Position numbers and translations under genes: made by a program. A stretch of 59,888 nucleotides of DNA, taken from the NCBI GenBank assembly GCA_012522445.1, contig JAAYKL010000133.1:1-59888 (forward strand), read 5' to 3'. Positions 3,853-40,423 of this stretch are shown here, piece after piece. The stretch comes from Myxococcales bacterium (GTDB lineage Bacteria > Myxococcota_A > Polyangia > JAAYKL01). The notes beneath the pieces were generated by a model. That model was given only the letters and a program-made list of their open reading frames with translations. It made no database searches and was not told the DNA's origin. Numbering within the stretch: the stretch's first letter is position 1; each line of letters starts with the position of its first letter.

Positions 3853-6800
3853 TTATTTGACGAAGCGCAGTTCGACCCGGCGGTTTTTGGCGCGGCCGGC
3901 GTCGGTGTCGTTCGACATGACGGGACGCGAAAATCCGTAGCCAATGGTGTTGAGGAGCGCAGCGTCGCACCCCTGGGAGACCAAGAAATCCTTGACGGCT
4001 TTGGCCCGCTGTTCGGAGAGCACCTGGTTGTTCTCGGCGGTGCCGATGTTGTCGGTGTGCCCGCTGATCTCCACCTTGCTTTGGTATCGCTGGATAATCT
4101 CGGCGACGCGCTTCAACTCGGGGATGGAGTAGGGCAGCAGCTTGCTCTCGCCGAAGTTAAAGAAGAGGTTGTTGACGCGCACTGGGGTGCGTTTCTCCTG
4201 CATCTCTTTGAAGGACACCACCGGGATGTCTTCTTTCATCGCTATCGGTTCGCGGCTGCTGCGCAGGTCGACGTTGTTGGAGATGGGAAAGTAGCCGGGG
4301 CTCTCGACGTAGTAGCCATAGAGCTTGCCCAGTGGCAGCACGATGAAGTAGCTGCCGTCGCTGGGGTCGGTGGTGGAATGCCCGATGACACGCTGGGACT
4401 CCAAATCCTCCCAGCGGATGACCGCCGAGATGGGGCGTTGTTGTGCGTCGACGAGGCGGCCGGTGAGGGTTGCGACGTAATCCGGGCGCAGGTGGCGCGG
4501 TAGGTTGAGCCAGTGCAGTTTGTTGACGCCCGCGGTGGCATCGGTTTTGGCAAAGTACGCCTTGGTGCCGTCGGTGGAGATTTTGTAGCCCCAGTCATCG
4601 CCAATGGTGTTGATCTCCTTGCCCAGGTTGATGGGTTCGCTCCAGCAATCCCAGCAGTCGTCTGCGAGGCGCGTGGATTTAAAGACATCGTAGCTTCCGA
4701 GTCCACCGTGCCCGTCGGAGCTGAAGTAGAGCGTCTTCATGTCCGGGTGCAAAAAGGGACTGCGATCTGAGAAATGCGTGTTGATCATCGGACCCAAGTT
4801 AATCGGTTCTCCCCACAAATCACCGCTGCGCAGGCTCACGTAGATATCCGATGGATAGTGGTGGTTGCCGTGATAGAAGTACCTATCTGCGATGGAAAAA
4901 TTGTAATTCTCTTCGCGTATCGAGGCGAAGAACAGCGCCTGCCCATCGCTGGAAATCATGGCGTCTGAGTTCCAGCTTCCGGCGTTGATGTGGGCGGGGA
5001 AGTATTGCATCGGCCCCCAGCCGCTTCTGGTTTTGTCGGCGTACCCCAGTTTGCCGCTTCGAAAGAAAATCATGGTGTTGCCATCGGCGCTCAAGGCCAT
5101 GGGACCGTCGTTGGTGGACGAGGTGGAGAGCCCGCGCACCAATTGGGGCGCCCTCCACTGATCATGGACGAAGTGCGAAACAAAGATGTCTTCGCCGCCC
5201 AGGTTGTCCGGGCGATCCCGGCCGCAAAAATACAGCGTGGTGTTGTCCGCCGAAATCACCGGAACGTACTCGTGGCCGGCAGAGGCGCTGACGTTGGGCA
5301 CGCGGCTGATCTTGACGGATTGATCCACCCGGCTTTGTAGCAACTGGAGCAAGTTGGCGTAGTGCGGATCTCCTGCGAAATGGCGCTTGTAGGCCTTGGC
5401 AACGCTGGCGGCCTGGGACCACTGTTGCTTGTACACGTATTCCGATATGAGCCCTTGCAACGCCACAAAGGCCAACGCTTTTGGGGCCGCCAATTTGATG
5501 TATTTTTTGATCGCAGCGAGATCGACCTCGCTGTCTTTCGCCGGGCCAGCGTGAGATGTTGAGAGGCCCATGGCGTATGCCATTTGGGCGAGGGCCCAGT
5601 CTTTTTCGAACTCGCGGATGCGGTGCACATCGTTGGAAAAGTTTTTTTTAAAGAGTTCTAAAGAGAGGAGTTCTCCGTCCGACGAGATGATTTTGTAATA
5701 GGTTTGCAGGCCGCGCAGGTATTGCTCGCTCGTGCCTTTGCTCATCGCGTAGCGAACATGGGGGAGATAGCCGTTGCGCTGTTCCAACTGCAAAATGCTG
5801 TCGATGATTTTGGCGGCGTGGCGGTTGTCGGGGTGTTTTTCGGCAATGGCGATCAAGTTGGCGGAGTTGCCGGAGGAGACGGCTTCCTCGTACAGGCGCG
5901 TCTCCCACAATGCCTGCACTTCCTCTTCAAATGGCGTGTAGGGAAAGGCGGCCAAAAAGTGCGCATAGCCCTCGGCGGTGTGTGTCGCTTTGGCGTGCTG
6001 CAATGCCAGGTTGTTTCGGCGCTCTTCGGCTTCGTCGCGCTCGTTCGCGCGCGGATACGCGTTCATGAAATCTTGAAAGGCTTCGATCGTGTTGGCTTCT
6101 TTGGCGCGCTGAAATGCCAGGGCGTTTCGGTGTTTTTCGGCCTGGAGGTGTTCGGGTGTGCCGCTCGGATAAACGTCGAGGAACCGCTGAAAGGCCTCAA
6201 TCGTGTTGCGCTGCACAGCGTCGACGTATGCGATTTTTCGCCCGCGCTCCAACGCCAGGGCGTGCTCTTTGGCGTCGGGATAGGTCTTGGCGAAGCGCTC
6301 GTAGGCCTCGACCGTGTTTTGCTTCTCGGTTTCGGAAAAGGCCCGCGCGTTGCGGCGCTGCACGGCATCGGCGTACTCCTTGGCGTCGGGGTACCGCTTC
6401 ATGAAGTCTTGAAAGGCGCCTACGGTATCCGCTTGTTTGGCATCGCGGAAGGCGGCCTGGTTGCGGCGTTCAATGCCCAGATCGATATAGGTTTGTGGCG
6501 ACTTCACAAAGTGGCGCAAAAAGTGTGCGAAGGCGTCGACGGTGTTTTGGCGGGTCGCTTCTTCCAGGGCGCGGTGGCAGATGGCGTTGGATTCGGCCTG
6601 CAAGGCATCGTAGGTGATGCCGTTTTTGGCGAGTTTTTTCAGGCGGCGTTCATCGAACTCGCGATTGAATTCGCCGATGGCGATCTGGATGTGGGCATAG
6701 GCCTCTTCGAGGTTGTGTTGGGCGTACTGGGGCTGCAGCAGCAAGTGGGCCATGGCATAATTCAACGCGATGTCCTTGGGCGCTTGTGGAAATTGCTTGT

Positions 6801-26658: not shown

Positions 26659-27954
26659 ATGACAACTGATCCCGCCATGTCGCATTTTTCAGCGCCCCCG
26701 CCTGCAGATGTCCAGGTGTCTTTTCGCACGGTGACCCACCGCATTGATCCGCACATGTTGGATGTCGACGCCTTGAAAACCCTGCGACGTCTGCGCAAGT
26801 TTGGCCATGAGGCTTACTTGGTTGGGGGATGTGTGCGCGACATTTTGATGGGCCACCAACCCACGGATTTCGACATCGTTACCTCTGCCAAACCCGCAGA
26901 GATCCGGTCTGCATTTCGCAACTCGCGCATCATTGGCCGCCGCTTTCGCTTGGCGCACCTGCACTTTGCCAACGGAAAAATTATTGAGGTGGCGACCTTT
27001 CGCCGCAGCCCCTGTGAGACCGACGATTTGTCAGGACGCCACGCAGCCGAAAATTTGTTTGGCACAGCCGCCGAGGATGCCATTCGCCGAGACTTCACCA
27101 TCAACGCGTTAATGTACGATGCGGAAAAAAACTGCATCTTCGATTGGAGCAGCGGGATGTCGGATGTTTCCGCGCGCTGTTTGCGTACCATTGGACATCC
27201 GGAACGCCGCATCCCTGAAGACCCAGCGCGCATTTTGCGTGCGGTGAAGTTTGCCGTACGGTTGGATTTGCGCTTTGATCCGCCTTTGGCCGAGGCCATG
27301 CAACGGCATGCCGACAAACTTTTGCTGTGCTCACCGGCGCGCCTCATTGAGGAGTTGTTTAAAATTTTGCGCAGTGGCCATGCGGTGGAGTGCCTGTACA
27401 TGCTGCAGGAGATCGGCGCGTTGAGGCATCTGCTGCCAGCCCTGGACGACTTCATTTCCGCGCAATCCCACAGCGACAACGCGTGGCGTGCGTTGGCGCG
27501 CGCAGATGAACAAAATGTGGCGGGGGACACGCTGAGCGATGCGGTGTTGTTGGCGGCGCTGTTGTATCCGGCTTGTCGCGACGTACTGCACACGGCCCGA
27601 GATGTGTCCCGAGAATTGGAAAGCGTATTGCGCCCCTTGGTGCATCCGCTGCCGTTCACGCGCCACCACATGGCCAGCGTGCGCCAAATGTTCCTCGCGT
27701 TGCGCCGTTTGAGCGCTGGCCCCGCTGCCAAGCGTGCGCGCAAAATGCTCGAGCGTGACTTCGCCGCCGACGCCATCGATTTGTTGGCCTTAGTGGCCAC
27801 GGAAAAAGAGGAGCTGCGCGCGCTGTCGGCGTGGCGCGCGTTGCAAAAAAAGTATCCGCAGAGCCATCCCAAAGAGCGCCCTACACCCACCAAGGCTGCA
27901 TTGCGACAAAACCCACGCCGTCGCCGGAAGCCTATGACAGCGCCGGTTGCTTAA
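26659..27954 (+). CDS. pcnB: Poly(A) polymerase / CCA-adding-type nucleotidyltransferase
   Basis: Adds nucleotides to RNA 3' ends. The 431-residue protein has the nucleotidyltransferase motifs VGGCVRDILMG and DFDIVT (two metal-binding Asp), then RRDFTINALMYD, PARILRAVKFA and LIEELFKI, in the order found in class II enzymes. The C-terminal tail is Arg/Lys/Pro-rich (PRRRRKPMTAPVA), as in PcnB poly(A) polymerases, where it aids RNA binding. Specificity between polyadenylation and CCA addition cannot be decided by eye, but PcnB is favoured by the basic tail. The 3' end overlaps the convergent hydF gene by four bases. Confidence 0.88.
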   Translation: MTTDPAMSHFSAPPPADVQVSFRTVTHRIDPHMLDVDALKTLRRLRKFGHEAYLVGGCVRDILMGHQPTDFDIVTSAKPAEIRSAFRNSRIIGRRFRLAHLHFANGKIIEVATFRRSPCETDDLSGRHAAENLFGTAAEDAIRRDFTINALMYDAEKNCIFDWSSGMSDVSARCLRTIGHPERRIPEDPARILRAVKFAVRLDLRFDPPLAEAMQRHADKLLLCSPARLIEELFKILRSGHAVECLYMLQEIGALRHLLPALDDFISAQSHSDNAWRALARADEQNVAGDTLSDAVLLAALLYPACRDVLHTARDVSRELESVLRPLVHPLPFTRHHMASVRQMFLALRRLSAGPAAKRARKMLERDFAADAIDLLALVATEKEELRALSAWRALQKKYPQSHPKERPTPTKAALRQNPRRRRKPMTAPVA

Positions 27955-29189
27955 AACTGTTGTTGTGACGCGAGCTGCGCGATCTCCGGAAAGGGGGATA
28001 GCGCGCGTTCGAGAATGCCCAGGCTGTAGGCGATGACGAGCCCGTAGTTGGTAATGGGAATGCCCGCCTCCTGGCACCTGAGCAACCGCGACATCATGTT
28101 GCGCCGGTTAAACATGCAGCCGCCGCAGTGGATGATGAGCCGATAGGGGCTGAGGTCGTCGGGAAAGTCGTTGCCCTGCACGGTGTCGAAGCGCAGCTCG
28201 CCGCCCACGCGCCGGTTGAGCCATTGGGGAATTTTGACGCGGCCGATGTCCTCGCCGATGGGGTGATGGCTGCACGCCTCGGCCACCAGAACGCGGTCGC
28301 CGGGCACCAGGCGCGGCACCGACAACGCGCCCTGGACTTGGGTTTGCAAGTCGCCTTTAAAACGCGAAAAGAGCACGGAGAAGCTGGTCATGGGCACCGA
28401 TGGCGGCACGGCCTGGGAGACGGGCAGAAAAGCCTGCGAGTCCGTGATTACCAGGGCGGGCGGCGTTTTGAGGTTTTGGAGCGCGCCGGCCAGGGCATTG
28501 TCTTTGACGACCAGGCAAGCGCAGTGGTTGTCAAGGGCGTCGCGGATGGTTTGGACCTGGGGGAGGATGAGGCGGCCCTTGGGGGCTTCTTTGTCGATGG
28601 GTACCACCATGACGACGGTGTCTCCCGAAGCGACGAGATCGCCGATGATGGTGGGGTTGCCGATGAAGTCTTCGGGGGCGGCATCCAGCAGCGTTTTGCG
28701 CAACGCGGAGAGCCCGGCGCCCGACAGAGCACTGACAGAGACCGTGGGGTGTTGGGCCTGCGCCATGGACGAGAGCAGGTCGGGGCAGGGGGGTGTCTCG
28801 TCGATTTTGTTGAACACCAGGACAAAGGGCGTGCCCAAGTTTTGAAATTGCGCCATGAGCTCCTGTTCGAAACCGCCAAATTGATCGCCTTGCACCACGA
28901 TGATGGCCAAGTCGGTGCGCTCGATGACCCGACGGGTTTTTTCGATGCGCAACTGCCCCAAGTGCCCCTCGTCGTCGATGCCGGCTGTGTCGATGAAGAG
29001 CACCGGACCTAGTGGCAGCAACTCCATGGGTTTCTCCACCGGGTCGGTGGTGGTGCCGGCCACGTGGGAAACAATGGACACGTTTTGTCCCGTTAGCGCG
29101 TTGAGCAAGCTGGACTTTCCGACGTTGCGACGCCCGAAGATGCCGATGTGAAGCCGAAAGCCTTTGAATGTTCTTTTGGTTCTGGCCAT
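27951..29189 (-). CDS. hydF: [FeFe]-hydrogenase maturation GTPase HydF
   Basis: Scaffold GTPase on which the di-iron subcluster of the H-cluster is completed before delivery to HydA. GTPase motifs are FGRRNVGKSSLLNAL (Walker A), DTAG and NKID. The C-terminal cluster-binding part has ACSHHP (CxH) and HCGGC, the Fe-S ligands required in HydF. The ATG at 29189 (MARTKRTF) gives 412 residues; a TTG at 29222 would add eleven. It is the last gene of the hydrogenase operon, 43 bases after hydG. Confidence 0.95.
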   Translation of the reverse strand: MARTKRTFKGFRLHIGIFGRRNVGKSSLLNALTGQNVSIVSHVAGTTTDPVEKPMELLPLGPVLFIDTAGIDDEGHLGQLRIEKTRRVIERTDLAIIVVQGDQFGGFEQELMAQFQNLGTPFVLVFNKIDETPPCPDLLSSMAQAQHPTVSVSALSGAGLSALRKTLLDAAPEDFIGNPTIIGDLVASGDTVVMVVPIDKEAPKGRLILPQVQTIRDALDNHCACLVVKDNALAGALQNLKTPPALVITDSQAFLPVSQAVPPSVPMTSFSVLFSRFKGDLQTQVQGALSVPRLVPGDRVLVAEACSHHPIGEDIGRVKIPQWLNRRVGGELRFDTVQGNDFPDDLSPYRLIIHCGGCMFNRRNMMSRLLRCQEAGIPITNYGLVIAYSLGILERALSPFPEIAQLASQQQF

Positions 29190-29232
29190 GGTTGCTCGCT
29201 GTGTGTTGGGGGGCCTTGTCAACCGACGTCGG

Positions 29233-30627
29233 TTAGCAAAAGACGTCTCGTTTTCCTTGGCGCACTTGTTCCATTAGGCGTTCGGAGATGCGCCGGGGCT
29301 CGGGCTCGAGGGTTGCCAAACTTTTCTCGATACTTTCGAGGCCTTGTTGTCGGGTAGTGTCGCCGGCGTAGTCGAGCAGGTATTCGAGAAAAGTGCTGAA
29401 GGCGTTGGGGTCGCAGTGGTGCTTGATGTCGCCGGGGCGGGCCAGATCCATGAAGTCTTGTCCGACGCGTCCCAGGCGGTAGCAGCCCGTGCAAAACGAG
29501 GGGATGTAGCCCAGGGATGCCACGTCGCGGATGACTTCGTCTAAGGAGCGGTGGTCACCCAGGCTGAACTGGGCGCCAACCTCCTCGGGGCTGTCGTTGG
29601 CGTAGCCCCCTGGAGTGGTGCGGCTGCCAGCGGAGATTTGCGAGACGCCCAAGGCAAAGGTTTCGCGGCGGATGTGCGCCGTTTCGCGGGTGGACATGAT
29701 GATGCCGGTGTAGGGAACGGCCAAACGCAAGATAGCGACGATTTTTTGGAAGTCCAAGTCGGAGACCGGCTGCGGCGGGTGGGTGGCGATCTCCGATCCG
29801 CTGGCGGGCTCCAGGCGGGGAACGCTGATGGTGTGCGGACCCACGCCAAAGCGCTCTTCCAGGTGTTGGATGTGTGCCAGCATGGCCAGAATTTCGTAGC
29901 GGTAGTCGCTAAGGCCGAAGAGCACGCCGATGCCCACATCTTCGATGCCTGCCGTCATGGCGCGATCGATGGCGGAGAGGCGGTAGTCGTAGTCGGCTTT
30001 TTGTCCGCGGATGTGCACCGACTTGTATGTGTCGCGGTGGTAGGTCTCTTGAAAGAGTTGGTAGGTGCCGATTTTGGCCTGCGCCAGGTTTTTGAATTCC
30101 TCGACGGACAAGGGCGCTACGTTGACGTTGACGCGTCGGATGTTGGCGCCATCGGCGCGGGCTTCGTAAATGGTGTGGATGGCGTCGAGCACGTATTGGA
30201 ATCCTTGCTTGGGATAGGACTCTCCGGCCACCAACAAAATGCGCTTGTGTCCTTGTCGCAGGAGCTCTTGCACTTCGGATTCGATTTCGGGCTGCGTCAG
30301 GGCGCGCCGGGCAATGCTTTTGTTGCGCACGCGAAACGCGCAATAGGTGCATTCGTTTTGGCAGAGGTTGGAGATGTAAAGCGGGCTGAAGATCACCAGG
30401 CGTTTTCCGTAGATGGTTTCTTTGACGTAGCGTGCGGCCTCGAAGAGTTGGCTGAGGTGTTCGGGGGCATGGACGTTGAGCAGCACCGCGACATCTTCGC
30501 GGGAGAGGCCGTTTAAGGTGCGCCCCTTTGCGATGATCTCGGCAATTTGACTTTCGGATGGCGTGGCCGCGTTGGCAATGGCGCGTGCGATGGCGCCATC
30601 GTCGATGGTGATGGTGTCGTGACTCAT
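29233..30627 (-). CDS. hydG: [FeFe]-hydrogenase maturation radical SAM enzyme HydG
   Basis: Cleaves tyrosine to supply the CO and CN ligands of the H-cluster. The radical SAM motif is CQNECTYC (C89, C93, C96). The C-terminal auxiliary cluster motif CTGC plus 22 residues then Cys (CX2CX22C) is present; it distinguishes HydG from the thiamine enzyme ThiH. Length is 464 residues. The start overlaps the stop of the preceding histidine kinase gene by four bases (ATGA). HydE, the third maturase, is not in the window. Confidence 0.96.
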   Translation of the reverse strand: MSHDTITIDDGAIARAIANAATPSESQIAEIIAKGRTLNGLSREDVAVLLNVHAPEHLSQLFEAARYVKETIYGKRLVIFSPLYISNLCQNECTYCAFRVRNKSIARRALTQPEIESEVQELLRQGHKRILLVAGESYPKQGFQYVLDAIHTIYEARADGANIRRVNVNVAPLSVEEFKNLAQAKIGTYQLFQETYHRDTYKSVHIRGQKADYDYRLSAIDRAMTAGIEDVGIGVLFGLSDYRYEILAMLAHIQHLEERFGVGPHTISVPRLEPASGSEIATHPPQPVSDLDFQKIVAILRLAVPYTGIIMSTRETAHIRRETFALGVSQISAGSRTTPGGYANDSPEEVGAQFSLGDHRSLDEVIRDVASLGYIPSFCTGCYRLGRVGQDFMDLARPGDIKHHCDPNAFSTFLEYLLDYAGDTTRQQGLESIEKSLATLEPEPRRISERLMEQVRQGKRDVFC

Positions 30628-31811
30628 GGGTGCACTTCCTTTGGGTTGGGTGGGGTTTCGTCGCCGTCGTCGCTGTGGGACGCGGTGCGCGGTAAAGTAA
30701 TGATGAAGGTACTGCCCACATCTGGCGTGCTGTCGACGCGGATGTCGCCGTTGTATAGCTGAACGATTTTTCGCACGGTGGAGAGGCCGAGCCCCGAGCC
30801 CTCGATGTTGCGCGTCTTGGCATTTTTGATGCGCACAAATTCGCCAAAGAGTTTGGCCTCTTCGTCGGGGGTTAAGCCGATGCCTGTGTCGGCTACGGAG
30901 ATTTGCACGGCGTCATCGCTCATTTTAACGTCGATGTCCACGCGTCCGCCTTGGCGGTTGTACTTGATGGCGTTGGACACCAAGTTGTTTAGCACGATGT
31001 CGAGTTCGCCCTTGTCGGCGTCGTAGAGAGGGGCATCGGGGGCATTTACCGCGATGGCAATGCCGCGCTCTTGCGCCTGCAATTCCAGCAACTCGATGGT
31101 GGATTGGATGAGGTCGCGCAGGTTGAGGGTCTCGATGTGCCGGGCCTTGGTGCCGGATTCGATGCGGGTGAGGTCCAGCAAATCGAAGATGAGTTTTCGC
31201 ATTCCGCCCAGGCGAATGAGGCTGCGCTCAATGACGCGCTGCATGGTGGCCTCGTCTTGAATGCTGCCGGATCGCATGAGCTCGAGGTAGCCCTCCACCG
31301 CTGCGATGGGCGATTTGAGTTCGTGGGAGAGGACGGAGATAAACTCGAAGCGCATGCGCCGTTTTTCTTCGGCCATTTGCCGCGCTTGTGCGAGCAGGAT
31401 GTGACTGCGCGTGGCACCGCGCACCGAGGCGCGCAACTCTTCGGGTGTGAAGGGTTTGGCCAAGAAGTCAAAGGCCCCCTTTTTGGTGGCGAAGATGGCG
31501 GTCTCCAGCGAGGCGTAGGCCGTCATCATCACCACGTGTAGGTCGAGGTTCATCTCCTGGATGACGCCCAAGACTTCGATGCCGCTGAGGCCGGGCAGTT
31601 TGTAGTCGAGCAGCAGAATATCGAAGGACTGCGCGCGCAACTTTTCGATGGCCTCTTCTCCGGTGGCCGCCGTATCCACGCGGTAGATGACGTGTTTGTC
31701 GAGATCTTGGAAGGTGGGCGCAAAGCGCTCAAGGGCGCGCCGTGCTCCCAAACGCATGCCTTCTTCGTCGTCGGTGATGAGGAGGTTGAGGGTGAGTTCG
31801 GTGGTGGTCAT
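30624..31811 (-). CDS. REC-HisKA-HATPase protein (response-regulator/histidine-kinase hybrid)
   Basis: The 395-residue protein starts with a receiver domain (LITDDEEG acidic pocket; phospho-Asp in ILLLDYKLPG; AKPF Lys), then a HisKA dimerisation domain with VLSHELKSPIAAV as the phospho-His box, and a HATPase_c domain with NNLVSNAIKYN, ADTGIGL and GSGLGLSTVRKI. It has no membrane helix and is cytoplasmic. Its start overlaps the H-cluster sensor kinase stop by four bases and its stop overlaps hydG by four, so it belongs to the hydrogenase operon. The receiver domain is a likely acceptor of phosphate from the neighbouring sensor kinase. Confidence 0.93.
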   Translation of the reverse strand: MTTTELTLNLLITDDEEGMRLGARRALERFAPTFQDLDKHVIYRVDTAATGEEAIEKLRAQSFDILLLDYKLPGLSGIEVLGVIQEMNLDLHVVMMTAYASLETAIFATKKGAFDFLAKPFTPEELRASVRGATRSHILLAQARQMAEEKRRMRFEFISVLSHELKSPIAAVEGYLELMRSGSIQDEATMQRVIERSLIRLGGMRKLIFDLLDLTRIESGTKARHIETLNLRDLIQSTIELLELQAQERGIAIAVNAPDAPLYDADKGELDIVLNNLVSNAIKYNRQGGRVDIDVKMSDDAVQISVADTGIGLTPDEEAKLFGEFVRIKNAKTRNIEGSGLGLSTVRKIVQLYNGDIRVDSTPDVGSTFIITLPRTASHSDDGDETPPNPKEVHP

Positions 31812-33853
31812 GGCGGCACTGGTTGCGGTTTGTGCGGGTTGCTTGTTGGGGGCTGGGCGTGCCTGCGCGGCAGTTTTATCGTGAACGCCGTGCCCGTGGG
31901 AGCGATCTCTGGGTTTGTGTTGCTGGAAACCGCGATGTCGCCCCGGTGCATTTTAACGATTCCGTAGGATACCGCCAGACCCAGACCGGTGCCCTTGCCA
32001 ATTTTTTTGGTGGTAAAGAAGGGTTGGAAAATTTTTTGTCGGTGTTCGGGTGGGATGCCGCAGCCCGTGTCTTGGATGCTGATGTGCATGGTGCTGGGGG
32101 TATCTTGGGTGCGGATGTGTAACGCGCCTTGTCCATTCATGGCAGAGACAGCGTTTTGAATGAGGTTGGTAAAGACCTGGATCATTTGATCGGGGTCGAG
32201 TTCGCAGTGGGGGGCGCTGTGGGCAAAGTCGAGGTGCAGCGAGACGCCTTCGGGCAGTCGGGCGATGTCGACGCAGTGGCGGATGAGGTTTTCGATGTTT
32301 ATCTCTTCGATGAGCGCTTTGTTTTCGCGAGCGAAGTCGAGGAGATTGGCCACGATTTTTTTGCTGCGTTGGGCCTGTTCGGCGATCATTTTTAAATCGT
32401 CGTAAACAGGCGATTGGGTGTCGAGCTCATCGAGCAGTAAGTGCGAGTACATCAAGACGACGCCCAGGGGATTGTTGAGTTCGTGGGCGACGCCTGCGGC
32501 CAATTGCCCCATGCTGGCGAGCTTTTCGGAGTGCATGAGCTGGTCTTGGGTGGTGGCGAGCTGCGCGTGAGAGTCCGAGAGATCTTTGATGGTGACCTTC
32601 AGGCGATCGATGATGTACGGCAGGCACATTTCGTCTTCGGCCAGTCCGAGGTGAATGGCGACGGCGTGCTCTCGACAGGTGTCGTATCCGCAGGCGCCGC
32701 AGTTTAGTTCGTCGGAGTATTCGCGTTTTCCCAGGCGCAGCAAAATTTCGGAGATCTCCGTTTCGGGGGCGCGGGGCGGACGCTGATCGTTTGGCTCAAA
32801 CGTGCGGGACAAGTCGAGATCGATGAAGCGCTTGAGATCGCGTTCGTGGACGGCGTCGCGTTGTTCGGAGCGGCGTAGCTGGACATAGCGGCTCACGCGG
32901 GAGCGCCGTTTGAAGTGCGGCTCCTCACTGGTCATGCCGGGGCCCATGATGCAGCCATTGCAGGCGAGAATCTCCAACAGGCGCGCGTCCAATGTGTTGT
33001 GCGAGAACTCGCTGATGGAGGAGGTGAAGGCAGAGAGCCCATCGACGGTGACCACTTCGTTTTTGAGCAGATCTTCGCGGATGTCCGCTGCCTGCAACAT
33101 GCCGCCGCAAAGTGGAAAGAGGGCGCCCAGACCGCCGAAGGGGGGATCGAATTCGCTGTCGGTCGTGTTGTTGGCCCGGATGCCTTGGTCGCGCAGCATT
33201 TTTTTGAGCGAGTGAAATGTCAGCACGGATTGGATCTCGCGGGCAACGCTGTCGTCGTCGGCTTCCATCTTTTTGGCGACACAGGGACCGATGAAGACCA
33301 CGCGGAGGTCGGCGCCATGCTCGGCCCGCAATGCGCGCGCAGTGGCCACCATGGGCGAGACGATGGGGGCAAGGTTGTCGATGGCGTCAGGGAAGTAGAG
33401 CTCGACGTAGCGGTACACTGCGGGGCACGTGGTGGCAATGAAGCGCTGGTCGGGGTGTTCGGAGATGAGTTTGCGATAACGGCTGGCGACCAGATCGGCG
33501 CCAAACGCCACTTCGGTGACCAGGTGGAAGCCCAGCTTTCGCAGCATGCCTACGACGCGTTGGTGGGAGATACCGGGGAACTCGGCCGGAAAGCTCGGCG
33601 CCAGGCAAGCGGCTACTTTTTGTCCGGAGCGGATGAGGCCGGAGACCGCGTCGCTGGCTGAGCAGAACTGTTTGGCTTCCTGGCTGCACACCCGAACGCA
33701 GTTGCCACAGGCAATGCAGCGCTCGGGCATGACTTCGGCTTGTCCGTTTTCGATGCGAATGGCCTTGGCGGGACACTCGCGCACGCAGGTGAAGCATACC
33801 CGGCATCGATCGGGGACGGTGGTCACGCAGGATACCGGCCGGGTCGCGTGCAT
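31808..33853 (-). CDS. Hydrogenase-like H-cluster domain fused to histidine kinase (putative H2/redox sensor)
   Basis: The 681-residue protein starts at the ATG at 33853, with AAGGAG upstream. Two [4Fe-4S] ferredoxin motifs ([22 protein letters not shown]) lead to an [FeFe]-hydrogenase-like domain with TTCPAVYRY (C143), GPCVAKK (C191) and EILACNGC (C298, C301). These retain the four cluster-ligand positions, while the position of the proton-shuttle Cys of catalytic enzymes is Thr. A further CGACGYDTC...C cluster domain (C385-C410) precedes HisKA (H457 in [12 protein letters not shown]) and HATPase_c. This matches the sensory, group C-like hydrogenase class by features known to me. Probably it reports H2 or reduced ferredoxin to the REC proteins beside it. 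Confidence 0.9.
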
Positions 33854-33920
33854 GGTGTGTTCTCCTTCGCGTTGGTGCCGCACCGCGGCGGTCATTGAGG
33901 AGTGGCGGCGTGTTGGCGAA

Positions 33921-34325
33921 CTAGTCTTGCGCCAGTTTGAGCAGGCGGCGCACGGCGGCCAGGAGCTCTTCGGAACGCGCGGGTTTGTCGAGCATCAGAT
34001 CGGCGCCGATCCATGCGCGTCCTGAGGGGGTGTCGGCCGCAAACGTGATGCCGGTCTCCGCAGACACCGCCGTCAGGATGATGACCTTGAGGTCGGGGTA
34101 CATCTTTTTGGCCGTGTGGCTGAGCACAAACCCGGAGTCTTTTTCTTCCATCATTAAATCGAAGATGGCCAGATCGGGTTCCACGGTCAGGAGCATCTCT
34201 TCGCCCTCGGCTTGGCAAGGCGCCGAGAGCACTTCAAAGCCGCCAGCTTCGAGGATAAGGGTCACCTGTTCCAGGGCATCGGGATCGTCGTCGACAACGA
34301 GAATTGTTTTTTTCTGTTCAGTCAT
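33921..34325 (-). CDS. Single-domain response regulator
   Basis: A 134-residue receiver domain only: ILVVDDDPDALE acidic pocket, phospho-Asp in LAIFDLMMEE, and Thr/Ser in ILTAVS, with DKPARSEELL containing the conserved Lys. There is no output domain. TTGAGG precedes the ATG at 34325. It sits between hydA and the H-cluster sensor kinase, making it a natural phosphate acceptor or relay, perhaps regulating hydrogenase activity by protein interaction. Confidence 0.92.
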   Translation of the reverse strand: MTEQKKTILVVDDDPDALEQVTLILEAGGFEVLSAPCQAEGEEMLLTVEPDLAIFDLMMEEKDSGFVLSHTAKKMYPDLKVIILTAVSAETGITFAADTPSGRAWIGADLMLDKPARSEELLAAVRRLLKLAQD

Positions 34326-34339
34326 GGGATTCCTCAATG

Positions 34340-36061
34340 TTAGCGCAACACTTCGCGCGTTCGGTAGTGAGTGTGCAACAATGCGTGGCTCTTTTCGCCC
34401 AGCGGTTCGCCGAGGTATTCTTTGTAGAGGCGCAGCACTTGTTCGTTTTTGTGTGACAGGCGCAGGCTGTCATCGCGGTCGATGGTGTACAGGGTTTTCA
34501 TGCGCTCTTTGACGGCTTCGCGATCAACGCCAATGGGCTGTCCACCGCCGCCAACGCATCCGTTGGGACAAGCCATAACTTCGATGAAATGAATGTCGTC
34601 GCGGCCGGCTTTGATCTCTTCCATTAAGGAGCGGGCATTGCCCAGCCCGGAGACCACCGCCACGCCGATTTTGGTGCCGCCCACTTCGAGGAAGACCTCT
34701 TTGCGGTCTTTGGAACCCCGCAGTGCCGGAATTTTGAGCTCGGACAATTCGTCGCCGGTGAGCAGGTAGTGCGCCGAACGCAGGGCAGCTTCCATCACGC
34801 CACCGCTGGCGCCAAAGATTTTACCGGCGCTGGAGCGCTCGCCAAAGGGGTTGTCTGCGCTGTCGGGGGGCAGTTGGTCCATGTTGACACCGGTCATGCG
34901 CATCAGTTGGGCCAGCTCGCGTGTGGTGAGCACGTAGTCGACATCTTGGCGGTTTTGGTAGCTGAACTCAGCGCGCTTGGCTTCGAACTTTTTGGCCGTG
35001 CACGGCATGATGGACACGCTGACGATGTTGTCGGGGTCCAAGCCTTGGTGTTCGGCGTAGAAGGTTTTGATGAGGGCGCCGAGCATTTGTTGCGGGCTCT
35101 TGCACGAAGAGACGTTGGGCAACAACTCGGGGAAGAAGGTTTCGACGAATTTGATCCAGCCCGGCGAGCAGGAGGTGATCATGGGGAGGACGCCGCTGTT
35201 TTTGATGCGGTCCACCAGCTCAGAGCCCTCTTCCATGATGGTGAGGTCGGCGCTGAACGAGGTGTCGAACACGCGGTCGAAGCCCATGCGGCGCAGGGCA
35301 GCCACCAGTTTCCCGTCGTAGTCGCTGCCGGCTTTGACGCCGAACTCCTCGGCGATGGTGACGGAGATGGCCGGCGCGTGTTGCACCACTACCACTTTGT
35401 TGGGATCGGAGAGGGCCGCCAGCACATCTTCGACGTTGGAGCGTTCGGTGAGGGCGCCGGTGGGGCAAACGACGACGCATTGGCCGCAATTGATGCAGGA
35501 GGAGACGTTGAGCCCTGTATCGAAGGCGGTGCCCACGGCGGCTTTAGAACCGCGCCGGATAAAGTCGATGGCCGAGACGGTTTGGATCTCTTCGCAGGCC
35601 CGGATGCAGCGGCCGCACAAAATGCACTTGTCGGGGTCGCGCACGATGGAGGGACTGGAGACATCGAGGCGGCTCTTGGTGCGCTCGCCTTTGTACAAAC
35701 GCTGGCGTACGCCGAGCTCGACGGAGAGGTCTTGCAACTCGCAGTTGGCCGAGCGGTTGCAGTAAAGGCAATCGTCGGGATGGTTGGCGAGCAGCAGTTG
35801 GGTCACGGTTTTGCGTGCGTTAATCACGCGCGGGGAGCGCGATTTGATCTTCATGCCAGCGGAGACGGGATACGAGCAGGAAGGAACGAGCCCGCGCATG
35901 CCCTCGACTTCGACGACGCAAATGCGGCAGGCGCCGCTGGGAAGCAGATCTTCCATGTGACAGAGGGTGGGTACATTGATGCCATTGCGCTGCAGCGCGT
36001 TGAGGATGGTCTCGCCCTCTTTGGCTTCGATGGTGATGTTGTCGACTTCTATTTGAATCAT
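34340..36061 (-). CDS. hydA: [FeFe]-hydrogenase catalytic subunit (HydA/HndD type)
   Basis: Interconverts H2 with protons and electrons. The 573-residue protein has an N-terminal [2Fe-2S] domain (C34, C45, C48, C62), a His-Cys3 [4Fe-4S] site (H94, C98, C101, C107), two [4Fe-4S] ferredoxin motifs (C146-C156, C189-C199), the H-domain and a small-subunit-like C-terminus. L2 is MPCTAKKFEA and L3 is EVMACPNGCVGGGGQP, both canonical. L1 is TSCSPGW, with Ser299 where most enzymes have a second Cys (codon 35165-35167). AGAGG precedes the ATG. Next to NuoE- and NuoF-like genes it forms a multimeric NAD(P)-linked, possibly bifurcating hydrogenase. Confidence 0.95.
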   Translation of the reverse strand: MIQIEVDNITIEAKEGETILNALQRNGINVPTLCHMEDLLPSGACRICVVEVEGMRGLVPSCSYPVSAGMKIKSRSPRVINARKTVTQLLLANHPDDCLYCNRSANCELQDLSVELGVRQRLYKGERTKSRLDVSSPSIVRDPDKCILCGRCIRACEEIQTVSAIDFIRRGSKAAVGTAFDTGLNVSSCINCGQCVVVCPTGALTERSNVEDVLAALSDPNKVVVVQHAPAISVTIAEEFGVKAGSDYDGKLVAALRRMGFDRVFDTSFSADLTIMEEGSELVDRIKNSGVLPMITSCSPGWIKFVETFFPELLPNVSSCKSPQQMLGALIKTFYAEHQGLDPDNIVSVSIMPCTAKKFEAKRAEFSYQNRQDVDYVLTTRELAQLMRMTGVNMDQLPPDSADNPFGERSSAGKIFGASGGVMEAALRSAHYLLTGDELSELKIPALRGSKDRKEVFLEVGGTKIGVAVVSGLGNARSLMEEIKAGRDDIHFIEVMACPNGCVGGGGQPIGVDREAVKERMKTLYTIDRDDSLRLSHKNEQVLRLYKEYLGEPLGEKSHALLHTHYRTREVLR

Positions 36062-36092: not shown

Positions 36093-39000
36093 TTAGGCGG
36101 GCTGGGTAAAGTCCAGATCGCAGCGCAGACAGCGTCGCGCTTCGCAAATGGCCATGTCGGGTGTCAAAACCAATTCGACTTCGTTGAAGTTGCCCTTGCG
36201 TTCGGCCAGCGGCAGGTGCGGCAGGCGGACGCGTGTGGTGCTGTTCTCTACGTCGCAGACCGGCACGGGTTCGACATAAACGGTGGGCAGTTTGACGTGA
36301 TCGATTTTGCGCAGTTTTTTGCCCAAGCAGAAACGGTCGATCATTTCGGCGGCGTTTTGTCCGTCAGCCACCGCGGCGATGATCATGTTGGGACCCGTGA
36401 CCACGTCGCCACCGGCAAAGACTCCGGGGCGGTTCGTCAGGTGCGACTCCGGATTGGTTTTGATGGAGTCCCACTTGGTGAGGGCGACGGCATTGTTGAG
36501 GCACGCGGTATCGGGGTCTTCGGAGATGGCGGCGATGAGTGTGTCGAGGGGGACCTCAAACTCGCTGCCTTCTATTGGAACCGGGCGGCGGCGCCCCTGC
36601 GCATCGGGGCGTCCCAGGGCGTTGGCGATGAAGCGCACCGCTTTGAGCGTGCCATTGTCGGCGATGGCGGCCACGGGCGTGACCAACTCGCGGATGACGA
36701 TTCCCTCTTCGCGGGCGTCGGTGATTTCATCGATGTGGGCGGGCATCTCGGCTTCGCTGCGCCGGTAAAAGACCGTGACCGATGTGACGCCGGGTTGTCG
36801 CAGTGCGATGCGCGCCGCGTCGATGGCGGAGTTGCCACCGCCGATGACACCCACGTGCCCCTTGGCCAAGGCGTTGCCGTGAAGGTTGTAGGCCTTGAGG
36901 AATTCCATGCCGGGGAGCACGCCGGGCGTGTCTTCGTTTTCGATGCCCAGCCGCTTGCTGCGATGCGCGCCCAGGGCGAGGTAGATGGCGTCGTATCCGT
37001 CGGCAAAGAGGTCGTCGACGCTGAAGTCGCTTCCCAGGGCCTTGCCCGTGCGCAGTTCGATGTTGTCATTGAGCAACGCACTGATTTCTTGGGACAGGGT
37101 TTCGCGGGGCAGCCGGTATTCGGGGATGGCGCATACGAGCATGCCGCCGGGCACTTTTTCTTTTTCAAAGATCGTGACGCGGTGTCCCTTGGCCGACAAG
37201 CAGTGCGCCGCCGTGAGACCCGCCGGGCCTGCACCGACGACCGCGATGCGCTTGGCGTTGGCACCGGGGGCCTTGATTTCGGTTCTGAAGGTGGAGCTCG
37301 GCACGTTTTCGACCACGTAGCGCTTTAGGGCGCGGATAGCGATGGCCTCTCCGCCCGTGGTGCCGCAGCGGCAGACCGTTTCGCAGGGATGGTGGCAAAC
37401 CCGTGCGCAAGCCGACGGAAAGGGGTTGTGCTGGCGGATGGCGCGGTAGGCTTCGGGGAGTTCATCGCGGGAGACGTGGGCGATGTAGCGCCAGGCTTCG
37501 GTGCCCACGGGACACCCGGTTTCGCACGGTGCGCCCACCAGCTCTTTGCAGGTGCCCGCCGGACAGCGCCGGTCGTAGATATGCGCTTCGTACTCTTCGC
37601 GGAACCAGCGCAAGGTGGACAGCACGGGGTTGGCGGCGGTTTGTCCCAATCCGCAGAGCGAGGTGTCGAGGATGACCTTGGCGAGTTGCTCGAGCTCAAG
37701 CACGCCTTGAAAGCGAATGAGCGCGTCATTGTCGGTTTCGTTGCGCCGACCGCGGGTCATGGCTTCGAGGATTTCGAGCATGCGCCGCGTGCCCTCGCGA
37801 CAGGGGATGCACTTGCCGCAAGACTCGGACTGGATGAACTCCATGAAGTACTTGGCCAAGTCGACCATGCAGGTGCTTTCGTCGAGCACCACCAACCCGC
37901 CGGAGCCCACGATGGCGCCGAGGGATTGCAATGACTCGTAGTCGATGTTGACGTCCATTTGACTGGCGGGAATGCACCCACCCGAAGGACCGCCCATTTG
38001 CGCGGCCTTGAACTTTTTGCCCGCGGGTACGCCGCCGCCGATGTCTTCGACGATCTCGCGCAGGCTGGTGCCGAAGGGAACCTCGACGAGGCCCGTGTTG
38101 TTGACACTGCCAACAAGGGAAAAAACCTTGGTGCCCTTGGAGGTGGCGTTTCCGATACCGGCATACCAGTCGGCGCCCCGGTCGATGATAAGGGGGACGT
38201 TGCACCAGGTTTCGACGTTGTTGATGTTGGTGGGCTTTCCGAACAGGCCGCGCTGTGCGGGATACGGAGGACGCGGACGGGGCATGCCGCGCTTGCCTTC
38301 GATGCTGTGGATGAGGGCGGTCTCCTCGCCGCAGACAAATGCGCCGGCCCCCATTTTGATGGTGATGTCGAGGCCAAAGCCGCTGTTGAGGATGTTGCTG
38401 CCCAGCAGGCCTTTTTTGCGGGCCGACGACAAGGCCTTTTCGAGTTGTGCGATGGCCAGGGGGTATTCGGCGCGGCAGTAGATGTATCCCTTGCTGGCGC
38501 CGATGGCATAGGCACCGATGATCATGCCTTCGAGCATTAAGTGGGGGTTGCCCTCGATTTCGGAGCGGTTCATGTATGCGCCGGGGTCGCCCTCATCGGC
38601 GTTGCAGATGATGTATTTTTGATCGCCGGGCTGCTGGCGGCAGAGCTCCCACTTGCGCGCTGCGGGAAAGCCGGCACCACCGCGTCCGCGCAATCCAGCG
38701 CTCTTGACTTCGGAAATGACTTCGTCGGGGGTCATGGCCGTCAATGCGCGGGCGAGGGCGGCGTACCCACCGTGGGTGATGTAGTCGTCGATGGACGTGG
38801 GATCGAGGTGCCCGTTGTCGGCCAGGATGACGCGCGTTTGCTTTTTGTAGAAGGGGACGTCCTGCTCTTTGTAAACCGGTTCGGCGCTGGCCGGATCGAT
38901 GTAGACCAGGCGATCGACATGCGTGCCCTCAACACATGTTTTTTGTACCAGCTCTTCGGCGTCTTCGGGTTTGACCAGCACTTGAAATGTGTTTTCGGGG

Positions 39001-39242
39001 CGCACGACAACGATGGGGCCTTTTTCGCAAAACCCGTGGCACCCCGTGGCCTTGACCTCAACTTTTTCGATGAGCCCTTTTTGGGCGACGGCATCTTTGA
39101 GGGCCTGTACCAAATCCTCGGAACCCTGTGCATTGCAGCCGGTGCCATTGCAGACACAGATGCGTGTTTTGTTGGGGTCGTAGGCGGCCGTGAGTTTGTC
39201 GCGATAGGCGGATAGCTGCTTTTCGTCTCCAAGTTTTGTCAT
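36093..39242 (-). CDS. NuoF/HydB-GltD fusion flavoprotein of the hydrogenase complex
   Basis: A 1049-residue electron-transfer subunit joining two flavoproteins. Residues about 28-100 are a thioredoxin-like [2Fe-2S] domain (CNGTGC...CHGFC). The NuoF part follows: RGRGGAGFP and CNADEGDPGAY for FMN and NADH, then the [4Fe-4S] motif SCGKCIPCREGTRRML. After CPAGTCKEL near 560, where HydB normally continues into a ferredoxin domain, the protein runs into a GltD/NfnB-like module: Cys-rich linker (CETGCPVG; CARVCHHPCETVCRCG), GAGPAGL for FAD (about 670) and GGGNSAIDAA for NAD(P) (about 800). The ATG at 39242 has GGAG seven bases upstream; one at 39254 overlaps the previous stop. It may couple H2 to both NADH and NADPH. 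Confidence 0.93.
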   Translation of the reverse strand: MTKLGDEKQLSAYRDKLTAAYDPNKTRICVCNGTGCNAQGSEDLVQALKDAVAQKGLIEKVEVKATGCHGFCEKGPIVVVRPENTFQVLVKPEDAEELVQKTCVEGTHVDRLVYIDPASAEPVYKEQDVPFYKKQTRVILADNGHLDPTSIDDYITHGGYAALARALTAMTPDEVISEVKSAGLRGRGGAGFPAARKWELCRQQPGDQKYIICNADEGDPGAYMNRSEIEGNPHLMLEGMIIGAYAIGASKGYIYCRAEYPLAIAQLEKALSSARKKGLLGSNILNSGFGLDITIKMGAGAFVCGEETALIHSIEGKRGMPRPRPPYPAQRGLFGKPTNINNVETWCNVPLIIDRGADWYAGIGNATSKGTKVFSLVGSVNNTGLVEVPFGTSLREIVEDIGGGVPAGKKFKAAQMGGPSGGCIPASQMDVNIDYESLQSLGAIVGSGGLVVLDESTCMVDLAKYFMEFIQSESCGKCIPCREGTRRMLEILEAMTRGRRNETDNDALIRFQGVLELEQLAKVILDTSLCGLGQTAANPVLSTLRWFREEYEAHIYDRRCPAGTCKELVGAPCETGCPVGTEAWRYIAHVSRDELPEAYRAIRQHNPFPSACARVCHHPCETVCRCGTTGGEAIAIRALKRYVVENVPSSTFRTEIKAPGANAKRIAVVGAGPAGLTAAHCLSAKGHRVTIFEKEKVPGGMLVCAIPEYRLPRETLSQEISALLNDNIELRTGKALGSDFSVDDLFADGYDAIYLALGAHRSKRLGIENEDTPGVLPGMEFLKAYNLHGNALAKGHVGVIGGGNSAIDAARIALRQPGVTSVTVFYRRSEAEMPAHIDEITDAREEGIVIRELVTPVAAIADNGTLKAVRFIANALGRPDAQGRRRPVPIEGSEFEVPLDTLIAAISEDPDTACLNNAVALTKWDSIKTNPESHLTNRPGVFAGGDVVTGPNMIIAAVADGQNAAEMIDRFCLGKKLRKIDHVKLPTVYVEPVPVCDVENSTTRVRLPHLPLAERKGNFNEVELVLTPDMAICEARRCLRCDLDFTQPA

Positions 39243-39253
39243 TGGCTTCTCCA

Positions 39254-39724
39254 TCAGTTCTTCTCGGGCTCGCTGCGCATTTCGACGAGCAGTTGGTCAA
39301 TTTTGCTGGGGGTCACTTTGGGATAAAAATGGTCGGATATGCTGATGGCAGGTGCCAGCGCACAGGCGCCCATGCAGGCCACCACTTCAATGCTGAACAG
39401 GCCGTCGCGAGACGTTTTCCCGGGCTCTACCCCTGTGGCCTGGGAGAGCTTTTCGAGGAGTTTCCCCGATCCCTTCACATGGCAGGCGGTGCCGCGGCAA
39501 ACCATGAAGTGGTTTTTGCCCTGGGGCTGAAAGCGAAATTGATTGTAGAAGGTCGCCACGCCGTAAATTTTGCTCGTCGGAAGGTTGAGCTTTTCTCCGA
39601 TGCGAACGATGGCGTCCTGGGAGAGGTATCCCTCTGCCGCCTGGACCTGTTGTAGGATGGGGATCAGCGAATCTCGTTGTGCGCCGTCGTATTGCGCCAA
39701 GATGGCATCTACATTCGTGGTCAT
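39254..39724 (-). CDS. NuoE-like [2Fe-2S] subunit (HydC/HndA type)
   Basis: A 156-residue thioredoxin-fold protein with the [2Fe-2S] ligands in CRGTAC and ACMGAC, and the family helix YGVATFYNQFRF. It is the smallest subunit of trimeric or tetrameric [FeFe]-hydrogenases and of complex I, and shuttles electrons to the FMN subunit. The start overlaps the rex stop (ATGA). The stop abuts the next gene. Confidence 0.94.
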   Translation of the reverse strand: MTTNVDAILAQYDGAQRDSLIPILQQVQAAEGYLSQDAIVRIGEKLNLPTSKIYGVATFYNQFRFQPQGKNHFMVCRGTACHVKGSGKLLEKLSQATGVEPGKTSRDGLFSIEVVACMGACALAPAISISDHFYPKVTPSKIDQLLVEMRSEPEKN

Positions 39725-40377
39725 TTTTTTGTCCTTTCCTTATCGGAGAAGTTGCCGGCGAAATAGGCAACTTTTTCTAGCGCGCTGGTCAAATCGAGGT
39801 TTTCGATGAAGACGTTTGCAGGGACGCGAATTTGCACCGGGGCAAAGTTGAGGATGCCGGTGACGCCAGCCTCGACCAATTCCCAAGCGATGTTTTGCGC
39901 GGCGTCGGCGGGAACGGTGATGATGCCGGTGCTGACCTGGTGGGTGGCGAGCACTGTTTTTAATTGGGTCACCGGATAGCAGCGGACGCCGTGAATGACG
40001 CGGTCGACTTTGCCGGGGTCGGCATCGAAGGCCGCACAGAGTTTGAACAGGGGATTGCGATCGACGAAGTAGTCGAGCAGGGCGCGTCCTAGATAGCCGA
40101 TGCCCACCAAGGCCATGCGTCGCTCGTGAGAGAAGCCCAAAAAAGAACTGGCGCTGCGCAGGAGCTCGGCTACTTCGTATCCGCGCGCCGAACTGCCGGA
40201 GAAGCCGATGGTCATGAGGTCGCGTCGCACCTGTGCGGCGGTTAGCCCGCAGAGGGAGGCGATTTCGTGGGAGTAGATGAAGGGGTTGTCGGAGGTGGCG
40301 TGGATGCTCTCTAGAAGGCGGCGGTAACGACTAATGCGTTCTACGGTGCGTTCGGAGATTTTGCGCTGTGCTGCCAT
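39721..40377 (-). CDS. rex: Redox-sensing transcriptional repressor Rex
   Basis: Binds DNA when the NADH/NAD+ ratio is low and releases it at high NADH. The 218-residue protein has an N-terminal winged helix (SSHEIA-type region SHEIASLCGLTAAQVRRDLMTIGFSG) and a Rossmann domain beginning ALVGIGYLGRAL, then FDADPGKVDR and VPADAAQNIAWELVEAGVTGILNFAPV, all standard for Rex. It is the first gene of the hydrogenase operon, with operator-like repeats immediately upstream, so autoregulation is expected. It is preceded by GCGAGA, a weak ribosome-binding site. Confidence 0.96.
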   Translation of the reverse strand: MAAQRKISERTVERISRYRRLLESIHATSDNPFIYSHEIASLCGLTAAQVRRDLMTIGFSGSSARGYEVAELLRSASSFLGFSHERRMALVGIGYLGRALLDYFVDRNPLFKLCAAFDADPGKVDRVIHGVRCYPVTQLKTVLATHQVSTGIITVPADAAQNIAWELVEAGVTGILNFAPVQIRVPANVFIENLDLTSALEKVAYFAGNFSDKERTKK

Positions 40378-40389
40378 TTATCTCGCTTA

Positions 40390-40423
40390 CTGTGAAAAGA
40401 TTAACAGCGTTAAAAGTTTCACA
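40390..40423. promoter_or_regulatory. Two tandem Rex-type operators before rex
   Basis: Site 1 (40390-40407) is C-TGTGAA-AAGA-TTAACA-G, and site 2 (40408-40423) is CGTTAA-AAGT-TTCACA. Both fit the Rex pattern TTGTKAA-N4-TTMACAA with mismatches mainly at the outermost bases. Their centres are 17 bases apart. Together they overlap the predicted transcription start of the operon, a position for repression. The Rex consensus is from family knowledge; binding is inferred. Confidence 0.7.

Follow-up and report, generated by a model that had tools for sequence, protein, structure and literature searches.

A group C-type [FeFe]-hydrogenase domain fused to a histidine kinase, a candidate H2 or redox sensor beside a bifurcating hydrogenase in Myxococcales

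Genes of the hydrogenase locus

The window (the whole stretch of 59,888 nucleotides analysed here, contig JAAYKL010000133.1 of a Myxococcales genome) carries a run of minus-strand genes, most of which touch their neighbours. In the order of reading, they encode the following proteins.

39721–40377, minus strand: Rex-type redox repressor (PF06971 and PF02629)
39254–39724, minus strand: HydC, NuoE-like [2Fe-2S] protein (PF01257)
36093–39254, minus strand: HydB, NuoF-like, fused to a GltD-like flavoprotein (Pfam)
34340–36061, minus strand: HydA, catalytic subunit of a bifurcating-type (A3; A6 in NCBIfam) [FeFe]-hydrogenase (NF040763, 831 bits, above the cut-off)
33921–34337, minus strand: single-domain response regulator (RR; PF00072), likely the partner of H-HK
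31808–33853, minus strand: H-HK, group C-type [FeFe]-hydrogenase H-domain fused to a histidine kinase, 681 residues
30624–31811, minus strand: REC-HisKA-HATPase protein (REC-HK; Pfam), overlapping the stop of H-HK
29233–30627, minus strand: HydG, H-cluster maturase (TIGR03955, 524 bits)
27951–29222, minus strand: HydF, H-cluster maturase (TIGR03918, 562 bits)

HydE and a second HydA are encoded elsewhere in the genome. The domain fused to HydB is a GltD-like FAD/NAD(P) flavoprotein, and similar fused BfuB subunits have been described in Hydrogenedentota. The HydA of the window displays the motif TSCSPGW, in which C299 is kept and a serine occupies the position of the CpI [4Fe-4S] ligand C300; the same serine is found in the solved HydA1 of A. 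woodii (7q4v) and in many A3 HydA proteins of related loci.

Rex is the only protein encoded in the operon with a DNA-binding output domain. Scans for the Rex operator consensus and for sigma-54 promoters gave no more matches than expected by chance. An inverted repeat, TGTGAAA-N19-TTTCACA (40391–40423), with an inner TTAAC/GTTAA pair, ends some 14 bp before the rex start codon; it is a possible operator, which differs from the usual Rex consensus.

The H-HK gene starts with the ATG at 33853, which is preceded by AAGGAG a few nucleotides 5', and its stop codon ends at 31808. The position of AAGGAG disfavours an upstream start at 33895, and the plus strand of this region is interrupted by stops throughout. 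The Pfam order of the protein is 4Fe-4S dicluster, Fe_hyd_lg_C, FeS (PF04060), HisKA and HATPase_c, with these boundaries.

33674–33832, minus strand: N-terminal domain with two [4Fe-4S] clusters, residues 13–56 (Pfam Fer4_10)
32939–33619, minus strand: H-cluster domain PF02906 (Fe_hyd_lg_C), residues 79–305 (Pfam and Foldseek)
32624–32701, minus strand: C-terminal [4Fe-4S] motif Cx2Cx4Cx16C, formed by C385, C388, C393 and C410 (PF04060, residues 383–412)
32324–32512, minus strand: HisKA (DHp) domain, residues 448–510 (Pfam), with H457 at 32483–32485
31862–32197, minus strand: HATPase_c domain, residues 553–664 (Pfam, 9e-25; ZraS match)

The match to PF02906 (5e-45) spans the whole domain (profile positions 2–245 of 245). 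The cysteines of the N-terminal clusters (C17/20/23/27 and C46/49/52/56) are present in 92/92 readable homologues, the Cx2Cx4Cx16C motif is invariant in 93/93, and the phosphoacceptor H457, which sits in the segment VAHELNNP, is a histidine in 92/92. A preliminary description of this DNA, which gave no strand and did not mention the N-terminal clusters, stated that the kinase is fused directly to the H-domain. The Pfam analysis bears this out: HisKA and HATPase follow with no PAS domain between. The same description regarded the [4Fe-4S] module C385–C410 as an extra one. The module is indeed located ahead of HisKA, but proteins of groups C and D carry it as their standard C-terminal cluster (PMC8163306), so it is not an add-on.

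Family and relation to known sensory hydrogenases

The H-HK architecture is present in hundreds of genomes of many phyla. At least 578 homologues were confirmed in GTDB genomes, spanning Planctomycetota, Myxococcota, Acidobacteriota, Hydrogenedentota, Latescibacterota, KSB1, Armatimonadota and others. Conservation was analysed in 93 sequences (the H-HK of the window, 12 from related genomes and 80 from GTDB genomes). All 49 members scanned with Pfam contain Fer4, Fe_hyd, FeS, HisKA and HATPase, and none of these 49 contains a PAS domain. The lack of PAS would suit a vestigial or structural H-domain in a kinase that responds to something else, which we find scarcely credible: all 16 cysteines, K194, G189 and L296 are conserved in many phyla at an overall identity of 45–67%, and a domain in decay would not show this pattern. 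The retention of the cysteines across the 93 homologues also shows that the motifs of H-HK are not a product of chance.

The neighbourhood is conserved as well. In 80 loci (the denominators are loci with room or a hit), HydA lies no more than 2 kb upstream of H-HK in 61/67, HydB in 47/55, HydC in 46/51 and Rex in 35/48. An RR adjoins H-HK in 67 of 74 loci, REC-HK lies downstream in 61 of 73, and the maturase genes hydG and hydF are present at 30/56 and 27/54 loci, respectively. Most of the RRs that flank H-HK are open frames of 130–160 codons, i.e. they consist of the receiver only.

Two N-terminal [4Fe-4S] motifs and a C-terminal Cx2Cx4Cx16C define the group C sensory type (PMC8163306). H-HK shares both of these elements and the H-domain with the group C (M2f) proteins TmHydS and R. 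albus HydS. A maximum-likelihood tree gathers the H-HK rows into a single clade (97/90) next to the remaining group C sequences, R. albus HydS and others being its sister; support for the grouping with group C is moderate (89/66 for the group C-wide fork and 81/54) in this tree, which does not include TmHydS. The comparison with sensory hydrogenases that the preliminary description had called for thus places H-HK, through its cluster motifs and with moderate support in the tree, alongside group C. Pfam, the alignment to CpI, the tree and the loci agree that H-HK has a sensory-type H-domain that has lost C299 and lies next to a catalytic bifurcating hydrogenase, and there is little doubt about the placement of the family.

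HydDB defines C1 as 'histidine kinase-linked (putative)' (PMC5037454), and by domain content, as opposed to the HydDB classifier, H-HK, with its group C H-domain and its histidine kinase, is of this type. Proteins of group C that carry kinase domains and lie next to bifurcating hydrogenases have already been published. A 2024 survey reported group C1/C3 proteins (BfuT) of Hydrogenedentota with HATPase/histidine-kinase domains beside an A3 bifurcating hydrogenase (PMC11406978). These have the same H-domain and kinase in the same setting, and loci L057, L062, L064, L091 and L108 fall in the H-HK family of the window. In the same survey, the motifs P1–P3 were hardly found in the kinase-bearing C1 proteins of Hydrogenedentota, and H2 sensing by them was doubted (PMC11406978).

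Other putative or known sensory hydrogenases differ from H-HK in how the kinase is connected. In TmHydS and R. albus HydS, a PAS domain takes the place of the fused HisKA/HATPase; PAS matches were obtained in four classical group C proteins (those of R. albus, A. noterae and M. pectinilyticus, and L162). TamHydS of Thermoanaerobacter mathranii (group D, M2e) resembles H-HK in its Cx2Cx4Cx16C motif, its lack of C299 and its position next to a bifurcating hydrogenase (PMC8163306), but its kinase is a separate gene. The regulatory [NiFe]-hydrogenase with the HoxJ kinase (group 2b in the HydDB table) likewise feeds a two-component system from a hydrogenase-type H2 receptor, although its metal site is unrelated and its kinase is a separate protein, so that the analogy is purely functional.

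The putative H-cluster site and its contracted L3 motif

The H-cluster motifs were mapped in an alignment of the H-HK family (28 rows) with CpI and references from groups A–D.

33425–33430, minus strand: L1, motif TTCPAVY, with T142 (CpI C299 position) and C143 (CpI C300)
33281–33289, minus strand: L2, motif GPCVAKK, with G189 (CpI M353), P190 and C191 (CpI C355)
32951–32962, minus strand: L3, motif ACNGC, with C298-N-G-C301 (CpI C499-HGG-C503)

All four H-cluster cysteines are present (C143, C191, C298 and C301 for CpI C300, C355, C499 and C503). CpI K358 corresponds to K194 and M497 to L296. The equivalents of CpI A230/P231/S232, P324, C355 and K358 are kept in the 28 family rows aligned, and those of the four cysteines and K358, as well as G189 and L296, are conserved in 93/93 sequences. 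The departures M353 to G189 and M497 to L296 had escaped the preliminary description; the former is shared with TmHydS, which also has a glycine at this position.

That description was right about L1, where the alignment places a threonine at the proton-shuttle cysteine and retains the cysteine just before the proline. The conclusion drawn from it, absence of turnover, is not supported. C299 is unconserved across group C; only some 17% of the sensory sequences in HydDB have a cysteine there, and H2 is still converted, at reduced rates, by TmHydS of group C (Ala131) and TamHydS of group D (Ala137), which lack it (PMC10055695; PMC10407848). Loss of C299 is thus the norm of the class and does not imply that turnover is absent. 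In the 93 sequences, residue 142 is T in 53, S in 24, A in 9, P in 4, N in 2 and C in 1.

The activity of these two proteins also speaks for H-HK as a slow working hydrogenase that mainly serves catalysis or electron exchange with HydABC while its kinase is ruled by the ferredoxin or NADH state, and the two N-terminal clusters would offer an electron route (PMC13104023). We nevertheless consider this very unlikely: the group A proton path is lost (E279, E282, R286 and S319 in CpI numbering are all changed, besides C299), nearly every locus encodes a dedicated catalytic HydA beside H-HK, and Pfam detects no NAD(P)H-binding domain in H-HK.

The claim that L2 and L3 keep the other ligands stands for the residues, though not for the spacing of L3. 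Two residues separate C298 and C301 in H-HK, as against three between C499 and C503 of CpI, and CxxxC is found in every non-family reference aligned from groups A, B, C and D (CpI, two other A-type proteins, one of them A3, the HydA of the window, four proteins each of types B and D, and six further group C proteins, R. albus HydS among them). CxGC therefore sets H-HK apart from the group C and group D-like references too. It is present in 92 of the 93 sequences, which rules out a sequencing error. A CC-x-G-C reading, which would restore CxxxC through residue 297, fits 51/93 homologues and not the protein of the window (A297). The one exception, a homologue from a Myxococcota MAG (L047, 6069–8075), has CxGGC (CDGGC) and is nested inside the CxGC clade, so this motif is most simply a reversion of the contraction.

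By alignment, CxGC is a clade-defining change at the bridging-ligand motif of a family that, together with its general role, has already been anticipated in the literature. The contracted L3 is not described for the published C1/C3 proteins (PMC5037454; PMC11406978), and the open-access literature searched yielded neither a description of a CxxC form nor an experiment on any family member. It probably contributes to the published failure to find P1–P3 in group C1.

In CpI, the cysteine touched by the contraction bridges the [4Fe-4S] cluster to [2Fe], so that H-HK need not have a normal H-cluster. The H-domain could hold no [2Fe] at all and only a [4Fe-4S] cluster on C143, C191, C298 and C301, making the protein a general low-potential (ferredoxin-level) redox sensor kinase and not an H2 sensor. 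Four cysteines that include a CX2C pair suffice for a cubane. Further points in the same direction are the clade-wide contraction of the bridging-ligand loop (92/93), seen in no other group compared, and the leucine at the M497 position in 93/93; the P1–P3 signatures fail for group C1 (PMC11406978), and a work cited in PMC10055695 is said there to have found that M497L in a prototypical enzyme blocked proper [2Fe] integration. Against this stand K358 and the segments A-P-S, S-P and G-P-C, lining the [2Fe] site in CpI, all of which are invariant or nearly so in the family and not obviously needed by a cubane. The preservation of the residues that cradle [2Fe] makes an H-cluster, possibly of altered geometry, the likelier cofactor. 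H-HK thus probably carries a [2Fe]-containing H-cluster, and a cubane alone is unlikely.

Whichever cofactor is bound, this large clade, which spans phyla, may tentatively represent a hydrogenase active site remodelled into a dedicated gas or redox receptor wired into a DHp kinase; the cofactor would be a diiron cluster adapted to sensing or else a cubane that lacks [2Fe]. The clade-wide CxGC and its single natural reversion to CxGGC in L047 provide a sharp test of the role of the bridging-cysteine loop in H-cluster assembly and reactivity.

Proposed cofactor maturation and signalling

Across 59 related genomes, HydF is present in 13/13 that encode H-HK (one of them, G003, with a partial gene at a contig end) and in 4/46 that do not (Fisher p = 6e-10, uncorrected for kinship). 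This distribution fits a dependence of H-HK on H-cluster maturation and counts against a cubane-only H-domain, but the neighbouring HydA is a confounder that explains it too. In one genome of the same family (G010, 95% complete), hydCBA is missing, H-HK, HydG and HydF are retained, and no PF02906 protein other than H-HK was found. This retention is suggestive. It is no proof that the sensor alone needs HydEFG, as the in-frame scar at the site looks fresh and could be of recent origin or an artefact of assembly. The scar (L178, contig C16 of G010, 5030–5431, minus strand) joins residues 1–35 of HydC to residues 87–133 of the RR.

The AlphaFold2 model of H-HK (49-row alignment) has a pLDDT of 86.8 and a pTM of 0.66. 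Foldseek relates it to the solved hydrogenases CbA5H, T. kivui HydA1 and CpI, and its kinase part to ZraS. A predicted continuous helix (residues 411–476) extends from the final cysteine of the C-terminal [4Fe-4S] motif into the DHp helix carrying H457. Confidence drops at about residues 430–460 (block means of 52–63), in the linker relevant to signal transfer.

The reading that we favour, with reasonable though limited confidence, is that of an H-cluster-bearing H2/redox sensor kinase tied to the neighbouring bifurcating hydrogenase. The H-domains of TmHydS and TamHydS, both of which lack C299, still mature and react with H2 (PMC8163306; PMC10055695). HydE, HydF and HydG would mature an H-cluster in H-HK. 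With the proton relay of group A lost and the surroundings of the diiron site altered (C299T, M353G, M497L and CxGC), this cluster is proposed to turn over slowly, and its H2-reduced state would serve as the signal. We lean slightly towards H2 as the physiological signal.

How the signal might reach the kinase is informed by TamHydS, in which the C-terminal cluster remains oxidised at 1 atm H2 even though H2 changes the secondary structure of the protein (PMC13104023). This favours a conformational route over a redox relay and weakens the earlier suggestion that the [4Fe-4S] module of H-HK passes redox state to the kinase. The signal would thus be mainly conformational, travelling from the C-terminal cluster domain through helix 411–476 to the DHp bundle, where it would alter autophosphorylation of H457. 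The phosphate may then be transferred to the adjacent single-domain RR, to the REC domain of REC-HK, or to both. The output would tune how strongly the bifurcating hydrogenase of the operon is expressed or how active it is, in parallel with control by Rex in response to NADH/NAD+. It is likely that the neighbouring hydrogenase is in some way regulated by redox state or H2.

Since the characterised TmHydS and TamHydS have no fused kinase, their signalling is not directly readable. H-HK combines receptor and kinase in one soluble protein whose partners are encoded next to it, so that H2-dependent phosphorylation could be assayed in one tube.

Two of the loci examined, L122 (2854–3855) and L117 (minus strand), contain other HydA genes (frames of 681 and 674 codons, respectively), each directly followed by a group C H-domain protein of another kind, which has CxxxC at L3 (CEQGC and CRFGC). 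Going by these sequences, two kinds of putative sensor, this one and H-HK, accompany HydA genes in these MAGs.
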